The translations under genes were made by a program, and so were the position numbers. A stretch of 64,000 bases of DNA from Clostridiales bacterium (GTDB taxonomy: Bacteria > Bacillota > Clostridia > Lachnospirales > Lachnospiraceae), in the NCBI GenBank assembly GCA_029010495.1, contig JAQXKO010000005.1:62001-126000 (forward strand), read 5' to 3'. The notes under the pieces were generated by a model that was given only the letters and a program-made list of their open reading frames with translations, did not search any database and was not told the DNA's origin. This document shows positions 59,130-62,173 of the stretch, one piece after another; positions within the stretch are counted from its first letter, which is position 1, and the number at the start of each line of letters is the position of its first letter.

Positions 59130-59891
59130 ATGGAAGATATAAAATTTAAAATGCAGACGTTAAATATTGCTGTTTGTGATGATGAAGATAAATATTCGGA
59201 TCAGATTTTCGACATTATAAATAAGTACCTGTCAGATAAAAACATAGAAAGCAGGATATTTCGGTTTGATAACGGTTATTCGCTGATTGATTCTGATATA
59301 AGTGAATATGATATTATATTTCTTGATATGGATATGCCTGAGATATCGGGAATGAAGACTGCGTTATGCATGAGGGAAAAGGGATATGAAGGCAGAATTG
59401 TCTTTGTTACGGTCATGCTTGATATGGCTACCGAGGGATATAAGGTCAATGCGTTCAGATATATATTAAAGGGCAAACATTTCAAAGACGGGCTGGCTGA
59501 ATGTCTTGATGCTTTTCTGACTGAGAATAAAATAAACAATACCTCCATATCAATAGATTCAGCTGAAGGAACTTTTGAGGTCAGCTCTGCCGATATAGTA
59601 TATATTAACTATATCAAACGTAAATTTGTATATTATATATATGATAAAGGAATGCTGAAGGTCTGTGAATCAAAGCAAAGGAGCAGTATGTCTGATTATC
59701 TGTATCTGTCTGATTATGATATAGTGATGATTAACAGAAATACATATGTGAATTTAAAATATGTTAACGGTATTTACCGATACGGAATAGAATTGGTTAA
59801 CGGACTCGGCAAGCTCGAGCTGGCTCAGACACAGTACAATGATTTTAAAAAGGTGTTTATGAAATACTGGGGTAAAAAATATGATAGATAG
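59130..59891 (+). CDS. LytTR-family response regulator (AgrA-like)
   Basis: NIAVCDDEDKYSDQI, IIFLDMDMPEISGM receiver; C-terminal LytTR domain. Confidence 0.9.
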   Translation: MEDIKFKMQTLNIAVCDDEDKYSDQIFDIINKYLSDKNIESRIFRFDNGYSLIDSDISEYDIIFLDMDMPEISGMKTALCMREKGYEGRIVFVTVMLDMATEGYKVNAFRYILKGKHFKDGLAECLDAFLTENKINNTSISIDSAEGTFEVSSADIVYINYIKRKFVYYIYDKGMLKVCESKQRSSMSDYLYLSDYDIVMINRNTYVNLKYVNGIYRYGIELVNGLGKLELAQTQYNDFKKVFMKYWGKKYDR

Positions 59892-61164
59892 CATATATTA
59901 TTTGTTTTACAACCTGACAGTGGTGATATATGAATATATTATTTTTATGTTTTTCTTTGAAAAGAAGCATACAGGGATAAAAAGGATAGCATGCCTTGTT
60001 TTATGGTATGTCCTTATAAATGTCATTTCCAATGTTTTAAGCGACTATCTTATGGTTAGAACGTTATTGATAATAACCGTTGGAACAGTTTTCTTTTATT
60101 ATCTGTTTGAGGTAAAAATACTATTCTCCTTATTATCCTTCTTCTTCAGCTATGTAATAGGCTTTATGTCCGACACAATTGTTCTTTTACTGGCAATAGC
60201 CGTCTTAAAGCTTGATATACAAAATATAGGCAGCACAGGTCAGGGAGTTTTCTTCGGAACACTCAGTCTGGCTGTCCAGCTTCTTGTCATTGTTATTTTT
60301 CAGACTTTATTATCTAAAAAGCAGAATAAGTCCGTGAATGCAAAGTTTTATTATAGAATAGCCATAATAATGTTCTTTTCGATAATCTCAAACATGTATA
60401 TTCTGACATCATACAGTCCGGACATGTCTGACAAAACAGTGAGCTCCTTTTTGATATTGGGTCTGGGAATGGTTTTGATTTGTGCAATAAATTTTGTTGT
60501 CATTTATGATATTTATATAAATGAAATCATTGCCAGGGACAGGATTATTGAAAAGGAAAAAAACGAAAAGTATTATCATAATTACATTCAGATATTGGAA
60601 AAATATGAAATTCAGAAAAAAAACCAGCATGAGGTAAAAAACAGAATTTCCGTAATTTCATCGCTGGCTGAGGAACGCCGGTGGGATGAATTGATGAATT
60701 ATCTGTCAGAATACCGAAAAGAAATTGCAACAGATACCGTTATGACAGGTAACGCAGTTATTGATTCAATCATTAATTCCAAATATGTGGAAATGGTTGA
60801 GAATAATATCCGGTTTGAACCTCAGATATCAAAGCTTGGAAATTTGCCTGTTTCGGATATAGATATAACAACCATTCTGGCCAATCTTCTGAATAATGCA
60901 ATTGAAGCCTGCAAAAAGGTTGAAGAAGCAGGCAGATACATTATGCTGTCCATTGAAATTCTGAATGAGTGCATAAACATAAGTGTTGTTAATTCATATA
61001 ACGGGACTATCAGAGAAAAGAACGGCATTTTGCTGTCCACAAAAGAAGATGCACAGCATCATGGAATAGGAATAGCCAATATAATTGATGCGGTTGAAAA
61101 AAACAACGGGGTATATGATGTGTCATATACCGATACCGTTTTTAAATTTATGATAAGCATATAA
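59881..61164 (+). CDS. GHKL sensor histidine kinase (AgrC-like)
   Basis: Six-TM N-terminus; KKNQHEVKNRISVISSL H-box-like; ILANLLNNAIEAC N-box; HHGIGIANI G-box. Confidence 0.9.
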   Translation: MIDSIYYLFYNLTVVIYEYIIFMFFFEKKHTGIKRIACLVLWYVLINVISNVLSDYLMVRTLLIITVGTVFFYYLFEVKILFSLLSFFFSYVIGFMSDTIVLLLAIAVLKLDIQNIGSTGQGVFFGTLSLAVQLLVIVIFQTLLSKKQNKSVNAKFYYRIAIIMFFSIISNMYILTSYSPDMSDKTVSSFLILGLGMVLICAINFVVIYDIYINEIIARDRIIEKEKNEKYYHNYIQILEKYEIQKKNQHEVKNRISVISSLAEERRWDELMNYLSEYRKEIATDTVMTGNAVIDSIINSKYVEMVENNIRFEPQISKLGNLPVSDIDITTILANLLNNAIEACKKVEEAGRYIMLSIEILNECINISVVNSYNGTIREKNGILLSTKEDAQHHGIGIANIIDAVEKNNGVYDVSYTDTVFKFMISI

Positions 61165-61360
61165 CAGGATATTTCTGTGCTTTTTTTCATGAAAATTTTT
61201 ATATCAGATGATAAATGTTTCTGCGGAAAATTCTGACGTGTAATATTTTGTTGAAAATTGTAATATGCTGTCGGACGAAATAATAATTGTTCGTATTGCG
61301 GCGCTTTACAAACAGAAAACTGTATGTGATAATTTGGTATATGAAAGGTGCAGGAACTTT

Positions 61361-61981
61361 ATGTTACAGAAGATATCAATATGGCTTTCGGAAAAAATGA
61401 TTGAACAGGACATTATTTCTGAAGATGAAAAAGAGTATTATGAGTATGCAATATCGGTAAATATTGAGAAAATAACAGGCTTTCTTATATTGGGAGCGAT
61501 AGCATTAATACTCTCGGAAATAGTGGGAATGATTGTGTTTTCGGTATCGTTTATCTGCCTTAGAAAATATTCGGGAGGATATCACTGCAAAACGGAAATA
61601 GGTTGTTTTATATTATCCTTTATTGTTATTTTTCTGTCGGTTGAAACAGCCGGATTAATCAATATCTGTGCTTCTGCCTGTAGTATTGTCATTTTGATAT
61701 CCTGTATAATAATAGTTTCTGTCGGTGCAATTAATAATCCTCAGATAAACTGGGATGAGGAGCAGCTTTCATATGCAAAAAAGAAAACAAGGCAGTGTGC
61801 CATTGTTGAAACGGTAATTTTTGAATTTTTATTATTGTTCGAAAAAACCGTTCCGATTGTAAGATATGGTATGATTGCTATTGTGTTATCCGCCGTTACA
61901 TTAATGATAAGACTGGCAGAAAGGAGATACCGTAATGAACAATGTAAAGAAAGCATTAAATCTTGTAAAAAAGGCTGTTAA
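61361..61981 (+). CDS. AgrB-like peptide-processing membrane protease
   Basis: FICLRKYSGGYHCKTEIGCF places catalytic His and Cys seven residues apart as in AgrB; multi-TM; start MLQKISIWLSEKM. Confidence 0.9.
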   Translation: MLQKISIWLSEKMIEQDIISEDEKEYYEYAISVNIEKITGFLILGAIALILSEIVGMIVFSVSFICLRKYSGGYHCKTEIGCFILSFIVIFLSVETAGLINICASACSIVILISCIIIVSVGAINNPQINWDEEQLSYAKKKTRQCAIVETVIFEFLLLFEKTVPIVRYGMIAIVLSAVTLMIRLAERRYRNEQCKESIKSCKKGC

Positions 61982-62078
61982 GAATGATACCGGCCTGGAG
62001 CCTGAAGCATGGCCTGGTTCACCTTATATTTTTTATCAGCCTAAAAGACCGGTCAAGAAAAATCTTGAGAAGAAATAG
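61935..62078 (+). CDS. AgrD-like cyclic lactone autoinducer precursor (47 aa; not in ORF track)
   Basis: SD agaaaggagataccgtaATG; MNNVKKALNLVKKAVKNDTGLEPEAWPGSPYIFYQPKRPVKKNLEKK: amphipathic N-terminus, SPYIF core, YQPKRP tail aligning to S. aureus DEPEVP; overlaps agrB-like 3' end out of frame. Confidence 0.85.
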   Translation: MNNVKKALNLVKKAVKNDTGLEPEAWPGSPYIFYQPKRPVKKNLEKK

Positions 62079-62134
62079 CATTACTACAGATAAATGAATA
62101 ATATATTTATTTGTGAAATCATGTTATGAAAATA

Positions 62135-62173
62135 AAATCTGCAGAAAGATACATATCTTCCTGCAGATTTTTT
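62135..62173 (+). terminator. Terminator after agrD-like gene
   Basis: aaaatctgcagaaagatacatatcttcctgcagattttttatg. Confidence 0.8.

Follow-up and report, generated by a model that had tools for sequence, protein, structure and literature searches.

The locus at positions 59130-62078 of the window (the whole stretch of 64,000 nucleotides analysed here) raises the question of whether an agr-type quorum-sensing operon can produce a cyclic signal from a putative AgrD precursor that contains no cysteine anywhere in the peptide, and, if so, whether serine closes the ring.

Gene content of the operon and its short ORF

The window encodes four genes on the forward strand in the order agrA-agrC-agrB-agrD, and their order, catalytic residues and coordinates agree with a previous sequence-only reading, which had listed a LytTR regulator, a GHKL kinase, an AgrB-like protease with a GGYH-x6-C motif and then a 47-aa ORF. 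The agrA-like gene (59130..59891) encodes a response regulator of 253 aa with a receiver domain (Pfam Response_reg, E=2.1e-11) and a putative, divergent LytTR-type DNA-binding domain, the Pfam LytTR match being full-length and, at 13.1 bits, under the cut-off of 22.6. The agrC-like gene (59881..61164) encodes a membrane sensor kinase of 427 aa containing a GHKL ATPase domain (Pfam HATPase_c_5, E=1.8e-20), an H-box region QHEVKNR and the N-box NLLNNAIEA. The product of the agrB-like gene (61361..61981) is a membrane peptidase of 206 aa (Pfam AgrB, E=2.3e-30), for which we favour the ATG at 61361 rather than the upstream start at 61265 of the listed ORF because of homology and a ribosome site. 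The catalytic pair His75 (61583-61585) and Cys82 (61604-61606) makes up the GGYH-x6-C motif; it shows no variation in the alignment of AgrBs from the clade described below and is kept in 130/130 AgrBs of the tree alignment.

Downstream, agrD (61935..62078, forward strand) encodes a signal precursor of 47 aa, MNNVKKALNLVKKAVKNDTGLEPEAWPGSPYIFYQPKRPVKKNLEKK. Its ATG lies within the 3' end of agrB in a different frame, 47 nt ahead of the agrB stop, and is preceded by the Shine-Dalgarno sequence AAAGGAG (61920..61926, forward strand) at a distance of 8 nt; the overlap, the strong ribosome site and the peptide are exactly as quoted in the sequence-only reading. A hairpin of 17 pairs with flanking T-runs, located 55 nt 3' of agrD by a terminator scan (62134..62171, no strand assigned), is the likely terminator of the operon. 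A possible, weak promoter of agrBD (61305..61333, forward strand), TTTACA-17-GATAAT with a preceding TG, comes from a consensus scan that found 30 promoter-like sites against 19 expected by chance. AgrA-type direct repeats were sought upstream of agrA and in the gap between agrC and agrB, which yielded only imperfect AT-rich pairs judged to be at chance level.

The identification of the 47-aa ORF as the AgrD of an agr-type locus, as proposed from the sequence, is backed by profile searches and by the gene order in relatives. A profile of 17 clade AgrDs, with the window left out, was run on the six-frame translation of the window (1,775 pieces) and placed the ORF at the top (E=3.2e-8; next best 2.4), and the A2 profile matched it with E=6.5e-14 as its sole match in the genome. 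The leader shows strong amphipathicity, matched by 0.04% of shuffles, and the ORF combines the features of the AgrD family, namely a short reading frame beside agrB with an amphipathic leader and a Pro-containing tail. TIGR04223, the curated AgrD model, covers residues 29-40 at 13.7 bits, under its 19-bit cut-off. The source genome (1.76 Mb, 28 contigs, 91% complete) encodes one AgrB, which adjoins the agrD of the window. The sequence-only reading had treated its proposal as vulnerable to an absence of the ORF from related genomes or to a different, Cys-containing peptide serving as substrate; the ORF is conserved in relatives, and a profile search of the source genome found no second AgrD of the QPKRP group (named after its tail motif), including any Cys-containing rival. 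On sequence evidence, agrD is a real gene, and the replacement of Cys by Ser is recurrent and conserved among relatives.

Serine in the place of the ring cysteine

The window AgrB belongs to an AgrB clade of 18 rows with a support of 99, whose other 17 AgrDs all contain Cys and end in [HY]QPKRP. Most clade AgrDs follow the pattern [W/F]PP-x-C-xxxx-[H/Y]QPKRP, and the window AgrD reads WPG-SPYIF-YQPKRP, with Ser29 in the column that holds Cys in all 17 others. The predicted ring SPYIF (62019..62033) is directly followed by the C-terminal recognition tail YQPKRP (62034..62051, both on the forward strand), so that the clade alignment bears out the earlier placement of Ser29 in the exact position of the ring Cys, at the head of a five-residue ring. 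A larger or smaller ring might be envisaged by analogy with the nine-residue GBAP ring SPNIFGQWM, which starts with the same S-P-x-I-F (PMC7028047), and in some AgrDs from other parts of the class the Cys precedes the tail by six or seven residues. We regard such a ring as highly improbable here, because a longer one would extend into the conserved tail: QPKRP does not vary among the 18 aligned members, and Cys, Ser or Thr stands exactly five residues ahead of [HY]QPKRP in the clade.

The order agrA-agrC-gap-agrB-agrD is present in 7/7 clade loci with sufficiently long flanks, while the eighth, L204, starts at agrB. Homologues of agrA occupy the equivalent place in clade loci, and those of agrC match with E-values of 1e-22 to 1e-40. 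The closest AgrB to that of the window in the clade tree is 30% identical, and no orthologous locus was found in four other genomes of the same genus. The AgrD of Roseburia inulinivorans record L239 is the same as in a genome of the window's family. A scan of GTDB genomes with the single AgrB sequence found no relative, and the 18-row AgrB alignment contains no stretch conserved enough to scan with. Named relatives were found by scanning GTDB species genomes for DNA coding for IF[YH]QPKRP, from which many chance matches were dropped for having no agrB.

Among these relatives, the rumen Saccharofermentans MAG locus L218 encodes KCPYIF-HQPKRP, the Cys twin of the window ring, together with agrA, agrC and agrB in this order and an AgrB matching that of the window with E=7e-30. 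The QPKRP-type systems of Clostridia, such as those of R. inulinivorans and L218, share with the window the AgrB clade, a Lys-rich leader, the [HY]QPKRP tail and the operon order (seen in full in L218), but have Cys (CPYIF in L218) where the window has Ser, and their AgrBs are about 20-30% identical to the window AgrB. Ser rings are also encoded by two rumen Clostridia MAGs, L242 and L243 (RSPVIF-HQPKRP), and a Mageeibacillus MAG (L253, on the same contig as L282) has Thr at ring position 1 (DTPIIF-HQPKRP). The rings of L234, L230 and L161 are CPVIF, CPLIF and CPGFF, respectively. Inspection of position 29 in relatives, as the sequence-only reading had suggested, gave 27 Cys, three Ser (window, L242 and L243) and one Thr among the 31 QPKRP rows of a careful 40-AgrB tree. 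Because the Ser and Thr rows all fall into one subclade of seven members (support 94/89), in which most rings are of the form x-P-x-I-F, the most likely history in the QPKRP clade is one or two changes from Cys to Ser.

Loss of the AgrD cysteine could also mark a decaying locus that no longer signals. The sporadic distribution of the locus in the genus, the position of the window as the lone Ser member of the first 18-row clade and the frameshifted agrB copies in some relatives would fit such decay, which we nevertheless consider very unlikely, given that all four genes are intact and accompanied by a ribosome site and a terminator. Furthermore, the Ser29 codon TCA is two substitutions away from TGT or TGC, and therefore one mutation or one read error would not be enough to produce it. 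Between L242 and L243, the AgrD leader contains seven amino-acid changes, whereas all differences from residue 28 to the end are synonymous, including that in the Ser codon (TCA/TCG), which argues that the Ser ring and tail of these relatives are under purifying selection.

The agrB genes of these and other relatives also differ in a run of G, with seven G in frame in L242 (L279 was also compared) whereas L243 and L278, the latter from another family, have eight G and are frameshifted at the homologous position. This difference represents either phase variation or homopolymer errors in the MAG sequences; in the window, agrB has no such run of G.

Predicted maturation and known signals

By homology with known agr systems, AgrB would use Cys82 and His75 to cleave AgrD between Phe33 and Tyr34, and Cys82 would hold the N-terminal part of AgrD as a thioester. 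Attack by the hydroxyl of Ser29 would then yield the five-residue lactone SPYIF, and N-terminal trimming and export would release a peptide consisting of a tail ending in ...WPG and the SPYIF ring. This exported peptide would be sensed by the AgrC-like kinase, which would activate the AgrA-like regulator. We assign a probability of roughly 0.77 to this reading of the locus as a complete, signalling agr-type operon. Against it count the TIGR04223 and LytTR scores below cut-off, the failure to find an orthologous locus in the four other genomes of the genus and the identity of only 30% to the closest AgrB in the clade tree. The predicted closure by Ser is well supported by the sequence comparisons, since Ser replaces Cys at the homologous position, the Ser ring is under selection in L242 and L243, and chemical precedents exist in the lactone of the Staphylococcus intermedius group (PMC10482373, PMC12312760) and in the Ser lactone GBAP, QN(SPNIFGQWM) (PMC7028047). 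The AgrB of S. aureus is unable to process an AgrD with Ser (PMC10482373); closure by Ser is therefore not automatic, and AgrBs that use Ser must differ. A search of the PDB for a structure of AgrB gave no sequence match.

Alternatively, AgrB might cut AgrD without Ser29 forming a stable lactone, in which case the product would be linear or, if it carried no tail, could be converted to a head-to-tail cyclic peptide by an O-to-N acyl shift. Listeria thiolactones that have no tail take only minutes to rearrange, and of a lactone analogue of the Listeria signal, 48% had rearranged and 36% had been hydrolysed by 22 h (PMC11297923). However, WP[PG] is a widespread motif ahead of the ring in clade AgrDs, which suggests that an N-terminal tail is retained on the mature signal, and such a tail prevents the acyl shift. 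Cys at ring position 1 also gives way almost exclusively to Ser, a restriction that a linear product would not require. We therefore consider an unstable or linear product unlikely and retain the lactone SPYIF as the predicted signal.

The closest known ring to SPYIF is that of GBAP from Enterococcus faecalis. Its precursor FsrD shares with the window AgrD the Ser at the start of the ring and the S-P-x-I-F motif, and GBAP is a Ser-closed lactone made by an enzyme of the AgrB family, as is predicted for the signal of the window. The GBAP ring comprises nine residues in contrast to the five predicted here, and fsrD is reported to be in frame with fsrB in an operon of the order fsrABDC (PMC7028047), whereas agrD of the window (61935) is out of frame with agrB (61361) in the order agrA-C-B-D. 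The autoinducing peptide of the S. intermedius group likewise contains Ser in place of Cys in an agr-type lactone, experimentally shown by Ji et al. (2005) as cited in PMC10482373, and differs from the window in sequence, lineage and operon order (agrBDCA). The window locus probably belongs with the Ser-lactone agr signals, an already known kind, and lies within a clade whose AgrDs normally carry Cys. The ring of Listeria monocytogenes AgrD precedes a tail, YEPKSP, that closely resembles YQPKRP of the window. This Listeria ring is pentameric (PMC11297923), like the one predicted in the window, but is a Cys thiolactone encoded in an operon of the order agrBDCA. A search for carriage on mobile elements turned up three phage records and three plasmids, all with no more than distant AgrBs.

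Ring-closing residues in Lachnospiraceae and other Clostridia

The sequence-only reading had regarded Ser as a rare exception and Pro within the ring as unusual, neither of which holds in a wider survey. Searches of 120 and then 395 genomes of the Lachnospiraceae, together with loci from the first search for relatives, gave 180 distinct AgrBs, 177 of which contain G[GA]xH-x6-C, the other three retaining the His-x6-Cys spacing. An iterated profile identified an AgrD-like neighbour for 134/180 AgrBs, and 128 of these AgrDs were scored at the ring position (four more Cys AgrDs were added by eye ahead of the tree). Ring position 1 is Cys in 81/128 and Ser in 38/128, and elsewhere in the class about 7/49 AgrDs, counted by eye, have Ser without Cys at the ring position. 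Pro occupies ring position 2 in 9/128 AgrDs of the family, as it does in the GBAP ring. Where Cys is missing from ring position 1, Ser is found there in 38/47 AgrDs, compared with at most 15/47 at each of the other positions from the fourth residue ahead of the ring through the tail, and all 38 Ser AgrDs, when aligned separately, share one invariant Ser column. On the AgrB tree, Cys and Ser interchange 11 times in the best topology, and at least four changes are forced by well-supported branches. We give even odds to a history of many switches between Cys and Ser, and of one or more to Thr, at the ring-closing residue of Clostridia AgrDs, with lactones as a common second agr chemistry. The window and L218 (SPYIF and CPYIF) would then be a natural pair for studying the switch, since their rings are otherwise identical.

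Several AgrB columns differ between Ser- and Cys-type systems, for example the one that follows the catalytic Cys, which is Tyr in 42/85 Cys-type and 1/38 Ser-type enzymes. As determinants of ring chemistry these residues were set aside, because the four independent supported pairs are too few to separate them from ancestry. We also rejected the possibility that Ser AgrDs as a group escape curated annotation, since 29/38 Ser members pass TIGR04223, as do 36/41 Cys members, at a roughly equivalent E-value. No description of the frequency of Ser AgrDs was found in the open-access literature.

Further variants were observed in the course of the survey. The Thr-containing AgrD of L253 (positions 1-700; GLPPDTPIIF-HQPKRPKK) lies beside an AgrB with an intact GGYHCKTFLGC, and its genome (G722) encodes two further AgrBD pairs, both with Cys; TRFLF-YEPEIP of L064 may be a second case of Thr. 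An AgrB clade comprising L020, L046, L113, L118, L120, L141, L157 and L160 is associated with AgrDs in which ring position 1 is always Ser and position 2 either Cys or Ser (SCIIM, SSIIM, SCVIM and SSVVA), so that either residue could close the ring. The AgrDs of L072, L074 and L189 lack both Cys and Ser at the position five residues ahead of the tail and have Ser six residues ahead of it (KSYPLCA-YEVKVP, KSFPIGM-HEVELT), which makes six-residue Ser rings possible; their relative L048 reads KSCPAYF. In other families of Clostridia (L291, L293, L295, L309, L316, L317, L321, L331 and L351), Cys lies six or seven residues before a [YH]QP/HEP tail, which points to rings of more than five residues. 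L214, titled 'uncultured Bacteroides sp.' at NCBI, contains a Lachnospiraceae-type agr locus and is probably mislabelled.

In recent reviews, the S. intermedius group and E. faecalis are the only lactone makers named among agr systems. Ser-closed signals may account for roughly one in four AgrD precursors of the Clostridia, which are a dominant group in gut and rumen, and the survey suggests that switching between Cys and Ser recurs on the AgrB tree. The pair SPYIF/CPYIF allows a direct test of how an AgrB accepts a weaker nucleophile, of which the S. aureus enzyme is incapable, and of whether the exchange of oxygen for sulphur separates the signals of neighbouring species. The wider Cys/Ser pattern, and above all the Thr case TPIIF-HQPKRP of L253, is a more interesting lead than the window locus itself.
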